DNA of 64,000 nucleotides, taken from NCBI RefSeq assembly GCF_026967795.1, contig NZ_JAPVBH010000002.1, forward strand, positions 496,001 to 560,000, read 5' to 3'. A program made the position numbers and the translations under genes. The stretch is from Modestobacter sp. VKM Ac-2986. Its GTDB lineage: Bacteria > Actinomycetota > Actinomycetes > Mycobacteriales > Geodermatophilaceae. Each line of letters starts with the position of its first letter. The stretch's first letter is position 1. The notes under the pieces are model-generated. The model was not told where the DNA came from, did no database searches, and saw nothing but the letters and a program-made list of their open reading frames with translations. Shown here piece by piece: positions 28,423 to 39,208 of the stretch.

Positions 28423-30168
28423 TCAGCGCAGGCGGCGGGTGTTGTCCGGCTGGCGCACGGTGACGCCGCGGGCGTCGAGCCACTCGGCCAGCGGGACGGC
28501 GACCCGGCGGCTGGTCCCCCACGCCTGCCGGGCCTGGCTCAGCGTGAACGGCTGCGCCAGCGTGGCCAGCCGGGCGCGGGCCACCTCCGCGACGCCGGGC
28601 GCCAGGTAGATGCCCTCGCCGATCCGCACCAGCTGCTCGTCGCGCACCGCGGCCGCGAGCTCCTTGGCACCCAGCCCGGCGGCCACCAGGTCACCGGCCT
28701 CGGGTGCGGCGAACGGCTCCTGGGCCAGCCGGGCGCGGATGCCGTCGACGGCGCGCTGCACCTGCGGTGGCAGCCCTGCCGACTCGGCCACCACCCGGCC
28801 GTCGCGCAGCGACAGCGGCGGGCGCACGAAGGCCGGGACCAGCTCGACGTCGGGCAGCTCCAGCGCCGAGCGCAGCACGGCCAGCGGCGGGCCGGGCTCC
28901 AGCGGGCGCAGCTGCCGGTAGCGGGCGACCACCTGGGGCACCCGGGCGGCCAGCTCGTCTGCCAGCGCGGGCGCGACCAACCACGGGCCCACGGCCGGGA
29001 CGCCGGCGGGCACCGGCCAGCCCATCGCCACGAAGTCGGCCCGGCGCACGAACCGCCGCCGGGCCAGGTCGGCCAGGGCCCCGGCCTCACCGGTCGGCTG
29101 CTCGGCCAGCTCGGCCGCGCGGCTGGCGGCGGCACCGCGGCGGCGCAGCTCGGGCGGGTCGACGTCCCGCACGTCGGCGCCGAACACGCGGCGGGCGCCG
29201 GGGTCGCGCAACAGCAGCCGGTCCCCGACCCGCAGCGGCAACGGCTCGGTCAGCCGCAGCCGCAGCGCGCTGCCGTCCAGCGGACGCACCCGGGCCGCCA
29301 CCGTCGCCGAGCCGATGTGCACGACCAGCTCGGCCGGCAGCCTGTCCTCCACCGGGGACACCAGGGAGACGTCGAGGTCGGTGGTGCGCCGGAAGGCGTC
29401 CGGGGTGAGCAGCGCGGCCCCCCGGGACAGCTGCTCGACGGCGATGCCCCGCAGGTTCAGCGCCACCCGGGCGGTCGCGCCGGCCGACTCGACCGGCTCA
29501 CCGAGGGACTGCAGGCCGCGCACGGTGACCACCTCACCGCCCAGGTCCAGCCGGTCACCGGCCGCCACGGTGCCGGCAGCCAGCGTCCCGGTGACCACCG
29601 TGCCGGCGCCCTTGATGGTGAAGGCGCGGTCGACCCACAGCCGCACGGGCGCCACCGGGTCGGGCGCGGGCAGGCCATCGAGCACCTGCTCCAGCATCGC
29701 CGACAACTCGGGCAGGCCGGCGCCGGTGCGGGCGCTGACGGCGACCGCGGGCAGCCGGCCGAGCGAGGTGCCGGCCAGCCGCTCCTGCGCGTCGGCGAGC
29801 ACGGGTGCGGCGTCGGCGAGGTCGGACTTGGTGACCGCGAGCAGCCCGTGCCGCACCCCGAGGGCGTCGAGCACCGCGACGTGCTCGGCGGTCTGCGCCG
29901 ACCAGCCGTCGTCGGCGGCGACCACGACCAGGGCAGCCGGCACCGAGCCGACGCCGGCGAGCATGTTGCCCACGAACCGCTCGTGCCCGGGGACGTCGAC
30001 CACCGCGAGCCGGCGGCCCGAGGGCAGCGTCGTCCAGGCGAACCCGAGGTCGATGGTGAGGCCGCGGCGGCGCTCCTCCTCCCACCGGTCGGGCTCCATG
30101 CCGGTGAGCGCGCGCACCAGCGTCGACTTGCCGTGGTCGACGTGGCCGGCGGTGGCGATCACGTCCAC
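28423..30168 (-). CDS. selB: Selenocysteine-specific elongation factor SelB
   Basis: 581-residue GTPase that delivers Sec-tRNA to recoded stop codons. EF-Tu-like domains 1-3: [19 protein letters not shown] (P-loop), [13 protein letters not shown] (switch), [16 protein letters not shown], and domain 2 [18 protein letters not shown]. The C-terminal third contains winged-helix repeats for SECIS binding ([23 protein letters not shown] at the end). GTG 30168 overlaps the selA stop by 10 bp and gives the standard N-terminus. GTG 30162 is possible but would shorten it. With the local tRNA-Sec(CUA), this factor should act at UAG codons and compete with RF1 rather than RF2. Confidence 0.96.
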
Positions 30169-31469
30169 CTGCGCGCCACCTCCAGCACCACGCGGGTGAG
30201 CTCGGCGTCCTGGGCGGGCTGCAGGCTGCGCACGTCCAGCAGCGTGCGGCCGCCCTCGACGTACCCGACCACCGGCGGGGTGGCCGCGCGCAGCGGCTCG
30301 GCGAAGCGGACGTCGAGGGCGACGGCGGCGCTGGGCAGCGGGAACTCCGGTGCCCCTCCCCCGCCGACCCGCGCGGTCGCCTCGACCGCGTCCGCCTCGA
30401 CCCCGCCGGCCCGCAGCGCGGCGGCGACCGCGGTGGCCCGGGCGTGCAGCTGCGCGGGGTCGGCGTCCAGCATCTGCCGCACCGGCGGCACCGGGCCGCG
30501 CAGCGTGGCCTCCAGGGCGGCGAGGGTGGTCTTGTCCACCCGCAGCGCCCGGTAGAGCGGGTGCCGGCGCAGCCGCTGCACCAGGTCCGCCCGGCCCAGC
30601 ACGATGCCGGCCTGCGGCCCGCCGAGCAGTTTGTCGCCGCTGCACATCACCAGGTCCGCGCCGGCGGCCAGCGTCGTCTGCAGGTCGGGCTCGTCGGGCA
30701 GCAGCGGGTGCGGGCGCAGCAGCCCGCTGCCGACGTCGGCGACCAACGGGACGCCGGTGCCGGCCAGCGCCGGGGCGAGCTCGGCGACCTCGACCGACCG
30801 GGTGAAGCCGCGGACGACGAAGTTCGACGGGTGCACCTTGAGCACCGCGCCGGTGTCCGGGCCCAGGGCTGCGGTGTAGTCGGCGACCGAGGCGCGGTTG
30901 GTGGTGCCCACCTCGCGCAGCCGGGCGCCGGTGGACACCAGCAGGTCCGGGATCCGGAAACCGTCGCCGATCTCGACCAGCTCGCCGCGGGCGATGACCA
31001 GCTCCCCGCCCAGCGCGGTGGCGACCAAGGCGAGGGCGGCGGCGCAGTTGTTGACCACCAGCGCGGCCTCGGCGGCCGGGACCGCCTCCAGCAGCGCGCC
31101 GAGCGCACCCTCCCCGCGGGGCCCCCGGCGGCCGGTGCCCAGGTCCAGCTCGACGTCGGTGGTGCCGCTGGCCGCGACCACCGCCTCGACGGCGGCGGTC
31201 GACCACGGGGCGCGACCGAGGTTGGTGTGCACCAGCACCCCGGTGGCGTTGAGCACCGGCGACAGGCTCGACGCGGTGCCGGGCAGCGCGGCGAGCACGG
31301 CCGGGACGACGTCGTCGGGGGCCAGCTCACCGGCGCGCACCCGCTGCTGGGCGACCTGGACCGCCGACCGCACCAGCTCGCGGCCGAGCCTGGAGGCACG
31401 GGCCGCGACCTGCGGGTCGGCCAGGACGGCGTCGGTGCGCGGCACCTGCCGGCGGGGATCGGGAGTCAT
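30159..31469 (-). CDS. selA: L-seryl-tRNA(Sec) selenium transferase SelA
   Basis: PLP enzyme converting Ser-tRNA(Sec) to Sec-tRNA(Sec) with selenophosphate. 436 aa with the N-terminal tRNA-binding region, [47 protein letters not shown] and the PLP lysine in [13 protein letters not shown] (about residue 277). ATG 31469 is preceded by TACGCT (minus strand, 31478-31483) eight bases upstream. It heads the selAB operon. Confidence 0.96.
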
Positions 31470-31608: not shown

Positions 31609-33120
31609 TCAGCCGAGCGACAGCGCCGTCCAGGAGACGGGCGGCAGCTCGACGGTCAGCGTGCCGTCCTCCACGACGGCGCTCTTGTTGTCGACCGGCG
31701 CGACGCGGGTCGGCTCGGTGAGGGTGTTGGCGGCGTAGGGGTCCTCGTCGTTGAGGGTGTGCGCCTCCTGCAGGCCGACCACGCCGAGCGACCCGAGGTC
31801 CACCGTCACCGTCACCGTCTCGTCCACGGACCGGTTGACCAGGAACACCGCGGTCGCGCCGGTGTCCGGGTCGTGGGTGGCCACCGCGTCGACCAGCGGG
31901 ACCTCGCCGTGGGCCTCGGTGCGGTAGGTGCCACAGGTCAGCTCCGGGCGCAGCACCTGCCCCCGGGCCAGCCGGGAGGTGAGGGCGAAGGGGAAGAAGG
32001 ACGTCTGCTTCCACGCCGGCCCGCCGGGCTCGGTCATGATCGGGGCGATCACGTTGACCAGCTGGGCCAGGCTCGCCGAGGTGACCCGGTCGGCGTGCTT
32101 GAGCAGCGAGATCAGCAGGCTGCCCACCACGACGGCGTCGGCCACGGAGTACTGGTCCTCGAGCAGCCGGGGCGCGTAGGGCCACTGCTCGATGTCGGTG
32201 ATCTGGTCCTCGGTGTGGAAGCGCTCCTGGTACCAGACGTTCCACTCGTCGAAGGAGACGTTGATCGTCTTGTCGCTGCGCAGCACTGCCTTCACGTGGT
32301 CGGCGGTGGCCACGACGGACTCGATGAACCGGTCCATGTCCACGGCCGAGGCCAGGAAGCCGGCCAGGTCGCCGTCCTTCTCCGCGTAGTAGGCGTGGCA
32401 GGAGATGAAGTCGACGTCCTCGTAGGTGTGCTCGAGGACCGTGCGCTCCCAGGCGCCGAACGTGGGCATCTGGGAGTTCGAGCTGCCGCACACGACCAGC
32501 TCGACCGAGGGGTCCAGCTGCCGCATCGCCTTCGCGGTCTGGCTGGCGATCTTGCCGTAGTCCTCGGCGCTGCGGTGGCCCAGCTGCCAGGGGCCGTCCA
32601 TCTCGTTGCCCAGGCACCACATCGACACCCGGAAGGGCTCGAGCGTGCCGTCGGCGACCCGCTGGTCCGACAGCGCCGTGCCGGAGCGGATGTTGGTGTA
32701 CTCCAGGAGGTCGATTGCCTCCTGCACCCCGCGGGTGCCGAGGTTGACCGCGAGCATGAGCTCACTGCCGGCCTTGTCGTTCCAGCGAGCGAACTCGTGC
32801 AGGCCCACCTCGTTGGTCTCGGTGGAGTGCCAGGCCAGGTCGAGCCGGCGGGGGCGGTCCTCCCGCGGGCCGACGCCGTCCTCCCAGCGGTAGCCGGAGA
32901 CGAAGTTGCCGCCGGGGTAGCGGATGGTCGACACGCCCAGCTCGCGGACGAGGTCCAGGACGTCGGTGCGGAACCCCTCCTCGTCGGCGGCGGGGTGGCC
33001 GGGCTCGTAGATGCCGTCGTAGACGCACCGGCCCAGGTGCTCGACGAAGGAGCCGAAGACCCGTCGGTGGACGTCACCCACGACGAAGTGCGGGTTGAGG
33101 GTCAGGTGTGCTGCGGACAT
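31609..33120 (-). CDS. GH51 alpha-L-arabinofuranosidase
   Basis: 503-residue intracellular glycoside hydrolase releasing arabinose from arabinoxylan or arabinan oligosaccharides. The N-terminus FGSFVEHLGRCVYDGIYEPGHP and YPGGNFVSGYRWEDGVGP are GH51 signatures. Acid/base Glu is in WCLGNEMDGPWQLGH (about residue 173), nucleophile Glu in VSFDEWNVWY (about 290). A C-terminal beta-sandwich follows. No signal peptide, so it acts on imported oligosaccharides. ATG preceded by GAGGAG 6 bases upstream. Last gene of the sugar transporter operon, after two intercistronic hairpins. Confidence 0.95.
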   Translation of the reverse strand: MSAAHLTLNPHFVVGDVHRRVFGSFVEHLGRCVYDGIYEPGHPAADEEGFRTDVLDLVRELGVSTIRYPGGNFVSGYRWEDGVGPREDRPRRLDLAWHSTETNEVGLHEFARWNDKAGSELMLAVNLGTRGVQEAIDLLEYTNIRSGTALSDQRVADGTLEPFRVSMWCLGNEMDGPWQLGHRSAEDYGKIASQTAKAMRQLDPSVELVVCGSSNSQMPTFGAWERTVLEHTYEDVDFISCHAYYAEKDGDLAGFLASAVDMDRFIESVVATADHVKAVLRSDKTINVSFDEWNVWYQERFHTEDQITDIEQWPYAPRLLEDQYSVADAVVVGSLLISLLKHADRVTSASLAQLVNVIAPIMTEPGGPAWKQTSFFPFALTSRLARGQVLRPELTCGTYRTEAHGEVPLVDAVATHDPDTGATAVFLVNRSVDETVTVTVDLGSLGVVGLQEAHTLNDEDPYAANTLTEPTRVAPVDNKSAVVEDGTLTVELPPVSWTALSLG

Positions 33121-33183
33121 GGGGAACTCCTCGGTGAGGACACAGGGGGCCGGCCGTGGGGGCGGCGAGGGTCAGGTGGAGCG

Positions 33184-33217
33184 GGTGCCGACCCGGTGGG
33201 GGCACCGGGTCGGCACC
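33184..33217 (-). other. 15-bp hairpin upstream of the arabinofuranosidase gene
   Basis: GGTGCCGACCCGGTG (33184-33198), loop GGGG, perfect complement (33203-33217). Lies in the permease-arabinofuranosidase gap; could be a partial terminator or a mRNA-stability element. Confidence 0.65.
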
Positions 33218-33289
33218 GCGGCACGGCGTCGGTCACGACGTCGCGGCGGAGCACGGAGACGGGCGGCTCAGCGCGGGCTGGGCCGGGCA

Positions 33290-33308
33290 GGCCCCGCGGT
33301 GCGGGGCC
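33290..33308 (-). terminator. Hairpin just after the second permease
   Basis: GGCCCCGC / GCGGGGCC with a 3-base loop, six bases past the permease stop; the flanking CCGG/GGGC extends it imperfectly. Probably a partial terminator before the arabinofuranosidase gene. Confidence 0.55.
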
Positions 33309-33314
33309 CGGCGG

Positions 33315-34235
33315 TCACTTCAGGCTGCCGAGGGACAGGCCGCCCTGCCAGTAGCGCTGGAGGCCGAGGAAGGCCGCGATCAGGGGCACGATCGACACCA
33401 GCGAGCCGACGATGATCAGGGTGTACAGCGAGACCCCGCCGCCGTTGTTGGCCCCGGCCAGTCCCTGCCAGAGGTTGATGCCGACGGTCACCGGGAAGAG
33501 CCGGGAGTCCGAGAGCACCGCCAGCGGCAGGAAGTAGTTGTTCCAGGTGCCCACCACCGACAGCAGCAGCACGGTGACCACGGCCGGTCGCATGAGCGGC
33601 AGCGCGACCTGGAAGAACAACCGGAACTCACCGGCGCCATCCATCCGGGCCGCGTCCAGGAGCTCGTCGGGCACGGCGTCGGCGGCGTAGACCCGCATCA
33701 GGTAGACCCCGAACGGGCTGAGCATCGAGGGCAGGATGACCGCCCAGATCGTGTTGGTCATGCCGACCCCGGACAGCATGATGAAGGTGGGGATGACCAG
33801 CGCGGTCATCGGCACCATCACCGCCCCGAGCAGCAGGGAGAACGCCAGCCGCCGACCCGGGAAGTCGAACTTGGCGAAGGCGTAGCCGGCCAGCACCGCG
33901 AGCACGGTGGCCCCGATGCCGCCGCCGAGCGCGTAGAGCAGCGAGTTGCGCAGCCACCGCAGGTAGATGCCGTCGTTGTAGGTGAACAGCGTCGACAGGT
34001 TGTCGAACAGGTGGAACCCGTCGCCGAACCAGAGCGCGCCGTTGGGCGAGCTGAACAGGCCGCTGCCGTTCTTGGTGCTGGACACGATGAGGAACCACAG
34101 CGGCATGACGAAGTACAGGACCAGGAACGCGAGGAACACGTGCGAGCCGAGCTTGCGCTTGGGGCGCTTGCCCCGCTTGCTGCTGGCGGCGGCCCCGGCG
34201 GGCGGGGTGTCGAGGGGCTTGGTCAGGACGCTCAC
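33315..34235 (-). CDS. Sugar ABC transporter permease (MalG/AraQ-like)
   Basis: 306-residue CUT1-family permease with six membrane segments, first VFLAFLVLYFVMPLWFLIV. EAA loop: DELLDAARMDGAGEFRLFFQVALPLMRP. It ends FLGLQRYWQGGLSLGSLK, typical of MalG/AraQ proteins. GTG 34235 overlaps the stop of the preceding permease (GTGA). Together with it forms the channel for an arabinooligosaccharide importer. No ATPase is encoded nearby, so a shared MsiK-type ATPase is expected. Confidence 0.93.
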   Translation of the reverse strand: MSVLTKPLDTPPAGAAASSKRGKRPKRKLGSHVFLAFLVLYFVMPLWFLIVSSTKNGSGLFSSPNGALWFGDGFHLFDNLSTLFTYNDGIYLRWLRNSLLYALGGGIGATVLAVLAGYAFAKFDFPGRRLAFSLLLGAVMVPMTALVIPTFIMLSGVGMTNTIWAVILPSMLSPFGVYLMRVYAADAVPDELLDAARMDGAGEFRLFFQVALPLMRPAVVTVLLLSVVGTWNNYFLPLAVLSDSRLFPVTVGINLWQGLAGANNGGGVSLYTLIIVGSLVSIVPLIAAFLGLQRYWQGGLSLGSLK

Positions 34236-35182
34236 TGGAGGAACCCCCCACGCTTGCGGGTCGCGAACAGGAAGATGTAGACGCCGATGAAGACGACGAT
34301 CCCCAGGGCGAAGGAGATCGCCGAGGCGTAGTTGAACTGGGCGAACCGGAAGGCCAGGTTGAACGCGTAGACGTTCGGCGTGATGTCGGTGCCGATCGCC
34401 CCGTTCGAGATCGGGGTCAGCACCTGGGGTTCGGCGAAGAACTGCAGGGTCCCGATCAGGGAGAACACCAGGACCAGGATCAGCGCCGAGCTGATCATCG
34501 GGATCTTGATCCGGGTGGCGATCTGCCAGGACCCGGCTCCGTCGATCTTCGCTGCCTCGTAGACCGACGGGTCGATGCCCTGCAGCGCCGCGTACAGGAT
34601 GATCATGAAGTAGCCGGCCCACTGCCAGGTCACGACGTTGGTGAACCCGTAGAACAGGTTGTCCGGGCTGAGCAGGAAGGGCGCGTCGTCCCCGAAGAGC
34701 TGCTCCAGCGGCCCGAAGCTCGGGCTGTAGAGGAAGCCCCAGATCACCGCGCCGATCACGGCCGGGATGGCGTACGGGATGAAGATCATGAGCCGGGCGA
34801 AACGCGAGAACCGGCTGGTGACCGAGTCCAGCACCAGGGCCGCGGCCAGCGCCACGATCATCTGCGCCGGGATGACGATGAAGGAGAAGCGGACGACGAA
34901 CCAGACACCGTTGAGGAACGACGGGTCGGAGAACGCGCGGCTGTAGTTCTCCAGTCCGGCGAAACGCTCACCGGTGGCCAGCCCCTTGGTGTAGAGGCTC
35001 AGGTAGAAGGCGTAGAGCAGCGGCGCGATCAGGAAGACGAGGAAGACCACGGCGAAGGGCGCCAGGAACGCCCAGCCGATCAGGCCCTGGGAACGACCCC
35101 GGCCCTGCTTCCGTCGTCGCTGGCCGGCCGGCGGGCCCGCGGTGGGTGCATCCGGCCGCGGTGCCGTGTGCAGCGTTGCCAT
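34232..35182 (-). CDS. Sugar ABC transporter permease (MalF/AraP-like)
   Basis: 316-residue CUT1 permease with a basic N-terminal tail (RRRKQGRGRSQ) and six membrane segments (LIGWAFLAPFAVVFLVFLIAPLLYAFYLSLY first). EAA loop: DPSVYEAAKIDGAGSWQIATRIKIPMI. It pairs with the next permease. A 15-bp hairpin separates it from the binding-protein gene upstream, which would favour higher expression of the binding protein. Confidence 0.93.
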   Translation of the reverse strand: MATLHTAPRPDAPTAGPPAGQRRRKQGRGRSQGLIGWAFLAPFAVVFLVFLIAPLLYAFYLSLYTKGLATGERFAGLENYSRAFSDPSFLNGVWFVVRFSFIVIPAQMIVALAAALVLDSVTSRFSRFARLMIFIPYAIPAVIGAVIWGFLYSPSFGPLEQLFGDDAPFLLSPDNLFYGFTNVVTWQWAGYFMIILYAALQGIDPSVYEAAKIDGAGSWQIATRIKIPMISSALILVLVFSLIGTLQFFAEPQVLTPISNGAIGTDITPNVYAFNLAFRFAQFNYASAISFALGIVVFIGVYIFLFATRKRGGFLQ

Positions 35183-35213
35183 TCCGACTCGCTCTCGTGC
35201 GGTGGAGGGGGTG

Positions 35214-35248
35214 CGGGTCCCGGGAGAGGGCGGCTCTCCCGGGACCCG
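35214..35248 (-). terminator. Intercistronic hairpin after the sugar-binding protein gene
   Basis: CGGGTCCCGGGAGAG (35214-35228), loop GGCGG, perfect complement (35234-35248): a 15-bp stem 22 bases past the binding-protein stop. Such elements commonly attenuate read-through into the permeases and protect the upstream mRNA. Confidence 0.75.
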
Positions 35249-35270
35249 ACGTCACGGTGGGTGGATCAGG

Positions 35271-36623
35271 TCACTTCAGCGTGAAGCCCTGCTGGGTCGC
35301 GTAGGTCTCCATCTCGGCCTGCAGGTCGTCCAGCGCCTGGGAGCCGCTCTTCTCGCCGTTGTTGATCGCGGCGATCTCCTCGGTGAACTGGGCGTAGAAG
35401 GTCGTGCCGAAGGGGCTGTACGTGGAGCCCTCGTACGCCTCGGCCGCGGGGATGTAGACGTCCTTGTTCGCGGTCTGCCCGGAGAAGAACTCGGTCTCGT
35501 TGTCGATGAACTCCTGGGAGGTCAGGATCGACTGGTTCAGCGGGAAGATCGTCTGGCTCTCCCAGCCGTCGGTCAGCGAGGCCTCGTCCGCGTAGAGCTC
35601 CTTGGCCACCAGGGCCGCGTTCTCCTTCTGCTGGGACTGGCTGGTCACCGACCAGACCGACCCGCCCCAGTTGACCGACACCGGGTTCGCGGTGTCCCAC
35701 TGGGGCAGCGGCGCGACGGCCCAGTTGCCGGCGTCGGCACCCTCGCCGGCGCCGGCGCCGGTCAGGTAGCCGGGAGCCCAGGCGGCGGAGATGTAGGTGG
35801 CGTAGTCACCGGCGATCGCACCGGCGATGTAGTCGGTCGTGAACTGGTCCTGGGTGCCCACGATGCCGTCCTCCACGAGGCCCGCCCAGTAGTCGAGCAC
35901 CTCCTTGCTCTCCGGCCCGTTGAGGTCGATCGACAGCTCGGTGGGGTTGGCCGAGTCGTAGACCCACGGCTCGGCACCGTTCTGCTGCATGAGCGCGACC
36001 GTCGGGGCCGGCACGTTGGCCGGGAGGTCGCCCATGAGCGGGCCGCCCTCGGCCTTGAGCTTCTCGCCGGCCGCCCGGTACTCGTCCCACGTGGTGGGCG
36101 GGGTGATGCCGTACTGCTCGAAGACGTCGGTGCGGTACATCATCGCCATCGGCCCGCCGTCGACCGGGATGCCGTAGACGGCGTCGCCGCTGGAGACGTC
36201 CTTCCAGGCACCCTCACCGAAGTTCCCCTGGACGTCGGCGGCGCCGTACTCGGTCAGGTCGACCAGTGCCTCCTGCAGGGCGAACACCGGCACGGTGTCG
36301 GTCTCGAGCATGATCACGTCGGGGGCACCGGTGCCCGCGGAGACCGCGGTCTGGAAGCGGGCGTACTCGTCGGCGCCCTGACCGGCGTTGGTCAGGCAGA
36401 CCTGGACGTCGTCGTGACCCTCGTTGAAGTTCTCCACGACCGTCGCGGCGTTGGGGTACCAGGCCCACACGGAGACGATGGCGGCCTCGGTCTTGGTGAT
36501 GGGGACGCTGCAGCTGCCGGGGTCGACAGCGGCGCCCGCTTCCTCCTCACCGCCACCGCAGGCGGAGAGCGAGGCCACGACGGTGCCGGCGCCGATGACG
36601 GCGGCGAGGACTCTGTTCTTCAC
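35271..36623 (-). CDS. Sugar-binding lipoprotein of the arabinoside ABC importer
   Basis: 450-residue CUT1 solute-binding protein. Signal peptide NRVLAAVIGAGTVVASLSAC with lipobox LSAC. The mature domain has AAIVSVWAWYPNAATVVENFNE, DVIMLETDTVPVF, GIPVDGGPMAMMYRTDVFEQYGI and NWAVAPLPQWDTANPVSVNWGGS, all typical of MalE/AraN-like binding proteins. GTG 36623 with GAGGGAG upstream. First structural gene downstream of the LacI regulator and its operator. Likely ligand, from context, is an arabinofuranosyl oligosaccharide. Confidence 0.92.
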   Translation of the reverse strand: MKNRVLAAVIGAGTVVASLSACGGGEEEAGAAVDPGSCSVPITKTEAAIVSVWAWYPNAATVVENFNEGHDDVQVCLTNAGQGADEYARFQTAVSAGTGAPDVIMLETDTVPVFALQEALVDLTEYGAADVQGNFGEGAWKDVSSGDAVYGIPVDGGPMAMMYRTDVFEQYGITPPTTWDEYRAAGEKLKAEGGPLMGDLPANVPAPTVALMQQNGAEPWVYDSANPTELSIDLNGPESKEVLDYWAGLVEDGIVGTQDQFTTDYIAGAIAGDYATYISAAWAPGYLTGAGAGEGADAGNWAVAPLPQWDTANPVSVNWGGSVWSVTSQSQQKENAALVAKELYADEASLTDGWESQTIFPLNQSILTSQEFIDNETEFFSGQTANKDVYIPAAEAYEGSTYSPFGTTFYAQFTEEIAAINNGEKSGSQALDDLQAEMETYATQQGFTLK

Positions 36624-36759
36624 GGTGCTCCCTCTCGGAGTCGCACCCCACGACGTCGTCGTCTGGGGGTGGAGCAGGTCCTGCGACCGGCTGGAGCCGG
36701 TGCCTGGGCGGAGCCGACCAACCTCGCGGGAGAGCCGGACCCTGTGGTGCAGGACACGA

Positions 36760-36775
36760 TTTACAACGTTGTGAA
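36760..36775 (-). promoter_or_regulatory. LacI-family operator for the arabinoside operon
   Basis: TTTACAACGTTGTGAA: 8-bp half-sites around a central CG, one mismatch, strongly AT-rich against the background. It lies between the LacI regulator gene and the binding-protein gene, 137 bases upstream of the latter. Shape and centre match LacI/GalR-family operators. The adjacent regulator is the obvious ligand-responsive repressor. Confidence 0.75.
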
Positions 36776-36890
36776 CGGCATCGTGCTGAACGCCCGGGGT
36801 CATGTCAAGGAGGGGTGACCGTGTCGTTACCGAGTCCTCGGCCGACGTCGCGGTGGCTGCCCGCGACTCCCCCGGACGGCAGCTCCCGGC

Positions 36891-37889
36891 TCAGCTGGAG
36901 GCGCGCTCCACCAGCGACCAGCCCACCGGCACGTGTTGTACCGGGAGGTCCCGGTCGGCGATCCGGCGGACCAGCGCGGCCACCGCGGACTCGGCGATCT
37001 CCCGGCGTCCGGGGTCGATGGTGGTCAACGCCGGCTGGGAGTACTGGCCGTCGTCGGTGTTGTCGAAGCCGACGACCGCGACGTCCTCGGGCACCTTGCG
37101 CCCTGCGGTGATCAGCGCGTGCATCGCCCCCAGGGCGAGCGTGTCGTTCAGCGCGAACACCGCGTCGAACTCGACGCCGGACTGCATCAGCTGCTGGGCG
37201 GCCTCCGCGCCCTGGTGGCGGTACCAGAGCTCGGCCGGCCCGAACAACCGCTCGTCGACGGCGATGCCCGCCTCCTCCAGCGCCTCCCGGTACCCCCGCA
37301 GACGCAGCCCGGCCGACCCGATGACCTCCCCCGGGTGCACGCCCACCACCGCGATCCGGCGGCGCCCGCGCTCCAGGAGGTACCGGGTCGCCGCCCGCGC
37401 CGTCTCGACGTTCTGGATCATCACGTGGTCGACGGTGGGGTGGAACAGCCGCTCCCCGAGCAGCACCATGGGCAGGTCGATCTCCAGCAGCCCGACGTCC
37501 TCGGCCGTCATGCCCAGCGGGCTGAAGAGCAGGCCGTCGACCATCCGCAGCCGAGCGCTGGTGAGCAGGTCGACCTCCCGCTGGCGGTCCCGGTTGGTCT
37601 GCTCGATCAGCACCACCAGGCCCCGGCGCTCGGCGGCCCGGATCACCTCGTCGGCGAGTTCGGCGAAGTACGGCAGCCGCAGCTCGGGCACGGCGAGGCT
37701 GATCGCCCCGTTGCGGCCCGACCGCAGGCTGCGCGCGGAGAGGTTGGGTTGGTAGCCCAGCTGCGCGATGGCGTCCAGCACGCGCTGGCGGGTGCTGGGT
37801 CGGACGTGCGGGTAGTCGTTGACGACGTTGGAGACGGTCTTGAAGGACACGCCCGCGAGCCGGGCCACGTCGTGCAGGGTGGCGGCCAC
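36891..37889 (-). CDS. LacI-family transcriptional regulator
   Basis: 332-residue repressor. HTH: TLHDVARLAGVSFKTVSNVVNDYPHVRPSTRQRV, hinge LGYQPNLSARSLRSGR. Sugar-binding periplasmic-fold domain follows, with DGLLFSPLGM, VVGVHPGEVIGSAGLRLRGYREAL, DAVFALNDTLALG and VVGFDNTDDGQYSQPALTTID. GTG 37889 is preferred over the TTG at 37895 because GGGAGG lies 9 bases ahead. It probably represses the arabinofuranoside operon through the operator at 36760. An 8-bp inverted repeat (CCGACCGG/CCGGTCGG, 37930-37951) lies in its upstream region. Confidence 0.93.
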   Translation of the reverse strand: MAATLHDVARLAGVSFKTVSNVVNDYPHVRPSTRQRVLDAIAQLGYQPNLSARSLRSGRNGAISLAVPELRLPYFAELADEVIRAAERRGLVVLIEQTNRDRQREVDLLTSARLRMVDGLLFSPLGMTAEDVGLLEIDLPMVLLGERLFHPTVDHVMIQNVETARAATRYLLERGRRRIAVVGVHPGEVIGSAGLRLRGYREALEEAGIAVDERLFGPAELWYRHQGAEAAQQLMQSGVEFDAVFALNDTLALGAMHALITAGRKVPEDVAVVGFDNTDDGQYSQPALTTIDPGRREIAESAVAALVRRIADRDLPVQHVPVGWSLVERASS

Positions 37890-38010
37890 CAGCAAGGTCC
37901 TCCCGGTCCGTCGGCGCTGCGACGCGGCACCGACCGGGAAGTACCGGTCGGCGCCCGTGCGCCGCTCCGGGGGAGCCTGCCACAGCGGACGGCCGCGACC
38001 GGCGCGGCAG

Positions 38011-38050: not shown

Positions 38051-38146
38051 TGGCGGAGGCGGACGGGAATCGAACCCGCCTGACCGAGATGCTCGATCAC
38101 GTCGGCTTTAGAGGCCGCGGGGGCCACCAGACACCCTGACGCCTCC
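38051..38146 (-). tRNA. selC: tRNA-Sec with CUA anticodon (reads UAG)
   Basis: 96-base gene including encoded CCA. The acceptor GGAGGCG pairs with CGCCTCC. Acceptor plus T stem total 13 bp, the bacterial tRNA-Sec hallmark needed for SelB. D arm is long with a 4-base TGGT loop. The anticodon stem CGGC/GCCG encloses CTCTAAA, so positions 34-36 read CUA. E. coli tRNA-Sec has CTTCAAA here (anticodon UCA). The variable arm is an 8-bp stem (TGATCGAG with CTCGGTCA) and CAT loop. T loop TTCGATT. UAG-decoding tRNA-Sec is established for Geodermatophilus and Blastococcus. A TAGGCT -10 lies 7 bases upstream, so transcription should begin at or next to base 1. Confidence 0.96.

Positions 38147-38206: not shown

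Positions 38207-39208
<1,002 letters not shown>

Follow-up and report, generated by a model that had tools for sequence, protein, structure and literature searches.

Apparent reading of UAG as selenocysteine in a Modestobacter relative: one probable tRNA switch against several switches of the codon

Selenocysteine (Sec) insertion competes with release factor RF2 where the codon is UGA and with RF1 where it is UAG. The window analysed here, the whole 64,000-nucleotide stretch from Modestobacter sp. VKM Ac-2986, carries a tRNA gene that raises the question of which of these two stop codons the bacterium reads as Sec. Judged from its DNA, this soil bacterium appears to read UAG and not UGA. The UAG-Sec system of Geodermatophilaceae is reportedly the subject of a paper by Mukai et al. 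2016 (Angew Chem), on which the demonstration in Geodermatophilus and Blastococcus stated in the first-pass annotation would rest. In the available part of a further account, which cites that paper, a CUA tRNA-Sec is already published for the family together with TAG in formate dehydrogenase (FDH) and UGSC genes (PMC5330540). The core is thus known, and a Modestobacter relative joins its bearers here; what is new is the discrepancy between what appears to be one tRNA switch and, very probably, several codon switches.

The tRNA gene and the neighbouring sel genes

A tRNA with anticodon CTA was found by ARAGORN at 38051-38146 on the minus strand, and the Rfam model of tRNA-Sec, RF01852, matched 38055-38146 on the same strand over its full length (1-91 of 91), its 64.6 bits (E 7.5e-11) lying above the gathering threshold of 47. 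The first-pass annotation, which had placed a tRNA-Sec with a CUA anticodon here and had proposed a search with ARAGORN and a Sec model, was right in coordinates and strand, both programs recovering the same gene. Its reading of the anticodon loop as CTCTAAA instead of CTTCAAA also agrees with our direct reading and with the alignment to UCA-bearing relatives. A long variable arm, G73-CCA and an 8+5 acceptor/T stack of 13 pairs are the traits of a tRNA-Sec. By direct reading, G73-CCA is present with the CCA encoded in the gene, and 8 pairs are possible in the variable arm (TGATCGAG/CTCGGTCA). These two hallmarks had been named correctly; the 13-bp stack claimed with them was slightly generous, the stack consisting of 12 standard pairs (one of them G-U) and one U-C mismatch. 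Several non-standard pairs, some of them in the D arm, were flagged in the Rfam alignment.

The label printed by ARAGORN was tRNA-Pyl (cta), and taken literally it would make the gene a tRNA-Pyl or a general amber suppressor. A tRNA-Pyl has a short variable loop. Against such an identity stand the 8-bp variable arm, the RF01852 score above the cut-off, the 90% mean column identity with UCA tRNA-Sec genes (alignment of six), the nearby selA, selB and selD, and the TAG found, as described below, at the Sec site in two families of selenoproteins. The label itself tracks the anticodon, as relatives with TCA were printed as SeC. The tRNA-Pyl reading was rejected on structure and linkage, and we consider it next to impossible. 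Pyrrolysine decoding shares with the present system the codon UAG and a CUA anticodon; according to the available part of one source, it uses a different tRNA and its own synthetase (PMC10778597).

A second selC with a UCA anticodon, which the first-pass annotation had named as an observation that would speak against it, was not found by the RF01852 search of the whole genome, since the remaining matches were three tRNA-Ser, one of them barely above the Rfam cut-off (48.1 bits), and one tRNA-Tyr.

The genes selA, selB and selD had been described as close by and intact. All three are intact as judged by the NCBIfam cut-offs. Closeness holds for selD (38207-39208, plus strand; TIGR00476, 381.3 bits, cut-off 125), which encodes a selenide water dikinase of the Cys form (codon TGC) and starts 60 nt from selC on the opposite strand. 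The other two lie 6.6-9.6 kb from selC with open reading frames, in the order selB-selA on the minus strand: selA, the L-seryl-tRNA(Sec) selenium transferase gene, at 30159-31469 (TIGR00474, 414.6 bits, cut-off 267.9; placed also by the SelA tree), and selB, for the Sec-specific elongation factor, at 28423-30168 (TIGR00475, 290.3 bits, cut-off 242.25, for 28423-30162). The start of selB, as deduced from the sequence, is a GTG at 30168 that overlaps the end of selA. Between selA and selC (31609-37895), ORFs resembling an arabinofuranosidase, a sugar ABC transporter and a LacI-type regulator were recognized by eye. In genome G059, apparently Geodermatophilus sp. LHW52908, selB, selA, selC and selD are contiguous.

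The selenocysteine codon of the source genome

The genome of 4,190,401 bases (99.8% complete) was searched for FDH with model TIGR01591, which matched nine stretches in four loci. Only one of the nine has an in-frame stop, a TAG, at C14:35355-36101 on the minus strand. The gene encodes an alpha subunit of the FdnG type (NCBIfam NF041513, 1888 bits) and has the TAG at its Sec site (IENQARI-U-HSATVPGLG); 11 nt after this codon comes a 7-bp stem with the loop GGUCU, as in a bacterial SECIS hairpin. The fdhA with in-frame TAG and SECIS-like hairpin that the first-pass annotation had proposed to seek genome-wide was therefore found, as one FDH gene, and the in-frame TGA that it had named, together with a second selC, as evidence against itself was not encountered at the FDH Sec site, here or in the family rows read.

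The folding energy of the hairpin alone is not convincing, because its z value is -1.5 and 17 of 200 shuffles were as good. Covariation is more telling. A Val codon and a Gly codon have third positions that pair with each other in 59/59 unique FDH sequences, in five types of pair (CG, TA, TG, GC and GT); shuffled sequences gave a mean of 30, and none of 5000 reached 59. The innermost pair changes from CG to GC in one sequence, and the outermost is formed in only 43/59. The 11-nt spacer and the GGUCU-type loop are alike in TAG and TGA genes for FDH, which would fit recognition of the hairpin, not of the codon, by SelB. A motif search of the genome (TAG, 17 nt, then RGTST between strong bases) gave 9 matches against 18 for the reversed control, so the count by itself is meaningless; among the 9, only FDH has a 7/7 stem and coding sequence on both sides.

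The FDH codon is the only one of its kind found. No match to UGSC was obtained in this genome with a model that matches 54/112 family genomes (control genomes were also without a match), and none of its four AhpC/TSA genes has an in-frame stop, so the whole Sec apparatus may serve a single codon. In this the bacterium differs from some other UAG-Sec members of the family; a UGSC or AhpC selenoprotein with TAG is reported for some of them but does not define the system, as far as the available text goes (PMC5330540). With the known members it shares the CUA tRNA-Sec and the TAG at the Sec site of FDH. With canonical bacterial UGA-Sec systems it shares SelA, SelB, SelD, the 11-nt spacer, the GGUCU-type loop and the FDH-N operon, and it differs from them in the anticodon CUA and the codon UAG.

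In the explanation that we favour, the selC anticodon would have changed from UCA to CUA, Ser-tRNA would be converted to Sec-tRNA by SelA with selenophosphate from SelD, and SelB would deliver the Sec-tRNA to a UAG with a downstream SECIS hairpin, against competition by RF1. The steps of SelA, SelD and SelB are those of the established bacterial Sec pathway. RF1 is present in the genome (467 bits), and the competition with termination that the first-pass annotation had predicted is for this reason to be expected. In practice, tools that open only TGA will cut such selenoproteins in two, and ARAGORN calls the tRNA a tRNA-Pyl.

Anticodons and Sec codons across Geodermatophilaceae

A tRNA-Sec was present in 108/112 Geodermatophilaceae genomes; the four without a match are 72-82% complete. 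The anticodon, read in 92 of the 108, was CUA in 85 genomes and UCA in 7. The latter make up three genera (g6-g8) and are fragmented assemblies, probably MAGs. Their tRNA-Sec differs little from the CUA type: the loop is CTTCAAA where the latter has CTCTAAA, and the closing pair is T-A where the latter has C-G. A scan of a collection of 84,980 species for CUA tRNA-Sec with C before the loop gave 90 stretches, and 77 of the 80 matches listed belong to Geodermatophilaceae by name, if some of the genera are, as we presume, members of the family. The remaining three are MAGs of Jatrophihabitans and of Frankiales and an 'unverified' Bacillus, the contig of which is equal in length to one of family genome G030. 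With another base than C before the loop there were 0 matches among the 84,980 species, by an exact pattern that would overlook genes with an altered D or T arm. Among 397 genomes of the order, the CUA matches were 75 family members and G230 of another family. In G230, apparently a Jatrophihabitans MAG (L136/L270), selA-selC(CUA)-selD lies on a contig of 4,845 bases, which is probably misbinned.

The SelA tree, built with 34 of the 80 named loci and without chromosomal SelA of other families, joins SelA of CUA genomes in one clade of 36 rows (support 100/99). Beside it stand four UCA rows of genera g7 and g8, and two plasmid rows fall outside. The tree marks the source genome as a Modestobacter relative, the nearest SelA to that of the window being from Modestobacter muralis (94%). 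Since the SelA of CUA genomes form one clade, the anticodon, as far as SelA tracks the tRNA, appears to have switched a single time, in the ancestor of those family members that have CUA. In the UCA genera (9 genomes) no FDH match was found at E 1e-20, UGSC rows were present in 2 of the 9 and had no stop, and the AhpC/TSA rows had no in-frame stop. Four loci of genera g7 and g8 (L126, L127, L128 and L135) retain the UCA tRNA-Sec and sel genes without an FDH-N match.

Where family rows with an identity of 66% or more cover the FDH Sec site, the codon is TAG in 118/118 and TGA in none (a hand count from a table that ends among rows of about 33% identity, the 118 coming from 98/112 family genomes); further family rows of high identity either stop short of the site or come from G080, in which the segment is missing. 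Outside the family, where about 193 genomes matched FDH, the codon was TGA in 66/66 rows among the matches listed, from ten families. Two rows were set aside. A family row of 32% identity with TGA (G082) is a paralogue in which Cys occupies the site and the stop lies upstream of it; an outside genome that is 88% complete (G209) has TGA plus a TAG where its relatives have Glu, which was taken as an error. The UGSC genes divide likewise, with 72 TAG, 23 without stop and 0 TGA in 95 family rows and with 11 TGA, 11 without stop and 0 TAG in 22 rows from outside. The eight family UGSC loci without a stop that were read have Cys at the site, and 58/112 family genomes gave no UGSC match. None of 55 AhpC/TSA rows (11 genomes) had an in-frame TAG or TGA.

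If the FDH TAG were a plain premature stop, these genes would be dead, and the two FDH copies of G080, apparently Modestobacter sp. Leaf380 (L129, C12 near 814900; L130, C4 near 2350), do look broken. In both, the part that would contain the Sec codon and the SECIS hairpin is missing and the frame is lost; the two gaps share the same end. This may be a true loss or a sequencing artefact at the hairpin. Yet in all 118 family rows the TAG is the sole stop in the stretch searched, the hairpin covaries at third codon positions, and the Sec codon tracks the anticodon between families. We therefore regard dead genes as scarcely credible and UAG as the probable Sec codon.

Repeated codon changes in formate dehydrogenase

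The FDH tree comprised 42 full proteins, 21 of them TAG genes chosen to cover divergent copies and 21 TGA genes (2 from plasmids); nearly all divergent TAG copies among the matches listed for the 112 genomes are in it, the fragments of G099 being left out. The genes were not grouped by codon. TAG genes occupy four positions: a main clade with 13 genes, that of the source genome among them; clade 2 (L197, L200 and L203); clade 3 (L193-L196); and clade 4, the single gene L198 of G001 amid TGA genes of families f13 and f16. The starred branches force at least four TGA/TAG changes, which the tree counts without direction. A single TAG clade was rejected by the AU test (dlnL 456, p 7.5e-5). Clades were also tested in pairs, in groupings named after the tree was seen. 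Rejection was strong for the main clade joined to clade 3 (p 1e-41) or to clade 4 (p 9e-18) and for clades 3 and 4 joined to each other (p 4e-7), and weak for the main clade joined to clade 2 (p 0.012). In the UGSC tree, which has long branches and mixed paralogues and was made without L174 and L192 (no motif read), TAG occurs in at least two places (AU p 0.010). From genomes and trees, we hold with high confidence the explanation as a whole: a change from UCA to CUA in selC, UAG-Sec in FDH, and one switch of the tRNA but at least four separate switches from TGA to TAG in FDH.

The re-spelled FDH would comprise the main lineage and three lineages distributed patchily among TGA genes of other families. 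This patchy distribution most likely reflects import of FDH operons of the UGA type by horizontal transfer, the one Sec codon of each being re-spelled afterwards to suit the host, a step for which the hairpin would have required no change. Local gene conversion from the resident FDH would be a candidate route of the re-spelling. By eye, the hairpin of L198 resembles that of its TGA relative. In seven copies of the minor TAG operons, no tRNA-Sec, selA or selD was found within 20-kb stretches, and one weak selB-like match (37%) lies in L239. Genes named by eye as iron-sulfur and NrfD-like subunits follow the FDH gene in all five copies whose neighbouring genes were listed, and in G001 the minor copy is on the contig that carries its CUA selC. 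Complete UGA cassettes, selB-selA-selC(UCA)-selD-nrfD-fdhB-fdhA(TGA), are found on two actinobacterial plasmids (L145, NZ_CP110115.1; L146, NZ_LR134459.1); the plasmid of Arthrobacter was typed conjugative and that of Tsukamurella non-mobilizable. The cassette on the plasmid typed conjugative lies near a Tn3 transposase.

The four TAG lineages might instead be old duplicates, the ancestor of the family having had four diverged FDH that were all re-spelled when the tRNA changed and were mostly lost later. That all four lie within one family, and that clades 2 and 3 each cover three genera, would agree with this. However, clades 2, 3 and 4 come from only 3, 4 and 1 genomes, and since nearly all divergent TAG copies among the matches listed are already in the tree, many parallel losses would be needed; clade 4, moreover, stands alone among the f13/f16 TGA genes. 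Old duplication is therefore rather unlikely. Even less probable, to the point of being a poor candidate, is movement of FDH genes from UAG bacteria into UGA bacteria with reversion of TAG to TGA. It draws on the undirected count of changes in the tree, but TGA is uniform in the outside rows among the matches listed and occurs on the two plasmids, the UCA tRNA is retained in related genera, and repeated codon changes would be needed all the same. Import followed by re-spelling remains the preferred reading.

The codon before Sec also differs between the two sets of genes. Ile before the FDH TAG was ATA in 62/62 readings (18 unique 27-mers; for example L045:7682-7687), and before TGA it was ATT in 26 and ATA in 11 of 37 (14 and 7 unique), the raw numbers counting overlapping loci twice; ten genes of the window have ATC 111 times and ATA and ATT 0 times. 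Asp before Sec in UGSC was GAT in 11/18 TAG and 7/7 TGA genes, against GAC in 11/11 Cys genes and 169 GAC versus 7 GAT in window genes. From ATA, ATT and GAT in this place, a base other than C directly before the recoded stop seems to be favoured, and A in the TAG genes for FDH; the reason may be a release-factor or P-site effect. On independent branches the link of TAG with ATA was represented by 4 pairs only, 3.4 the same way and 0 opposite, a number from which p cannot reach 0.05.

Genome G059 carries two tRNA-Sec genes. One is its selC, with CUA and in the customary position; the other has UCA (L046:1169-1263, G059:C17, minus strand; 81.8 bits). The latter is situated at one end of its contig, where 15 kb have a GC content of 68%, against 75-77% in the remainder, and where several ORFs resemble transposases by eye. 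A tblastn search of that contig for sel, FDH and UGSC genes gave no hit, and no convincing TGA gene was seen in the 6.3 kb beside the tRNA; the FDH-N and UGSC genes found in G059 have TAG. The UCA gene may be left over from an imported UGA cassette, or it may serve a second dialect that is still alive. We put at about even chances a course of events in which genes of the UGA dialect kept arriving and had their Sec codon rewritten as UAG one by one (in FDH on at least three further occasions), with ATA fixed before it, two-tRNA genomes of the G059 type being the possible intermediates. If so, a changed code does not isolate its bearer, and imports are put into the local dialect codon by codon.

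In Aeromonas salmonicida the natural Sec codon is a Cys codon, according to the available parts of two sources (PMC10778597, PMC8124441). There too the Sec codon was changed naturally through the tRNA anticodon, to a sense codon and not, as here, to a stop codon. The accessible text of PMC5330540, PMC8124441, PMC13188914 and PMC10778597, Mukai et al. 2016 apart, yielded no statement of a repeated change from TGA to TAG; likewise, the accessible text of the published account, with the same exception, gave no mention of parallel codon changes, the UCA genera, the ATA context or a two-tRNA genome. Geodermatophilaceae offer a natural case of an amino acid moved between stop codons, with the UCA state alive in related genera. 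Two questions become testable with it: how the codon change was repeated through a dead intermediate (TGA to TAA or TGG, then to TAG), and whether the rarer stop, TAG, is the better Sec site. By a crude gene call over 13 family loci (n = 197), the stops were TGA in 180 (91%), TAA in 1 and TAG in 16 (about 8%), among which Sec TAGs may be included.
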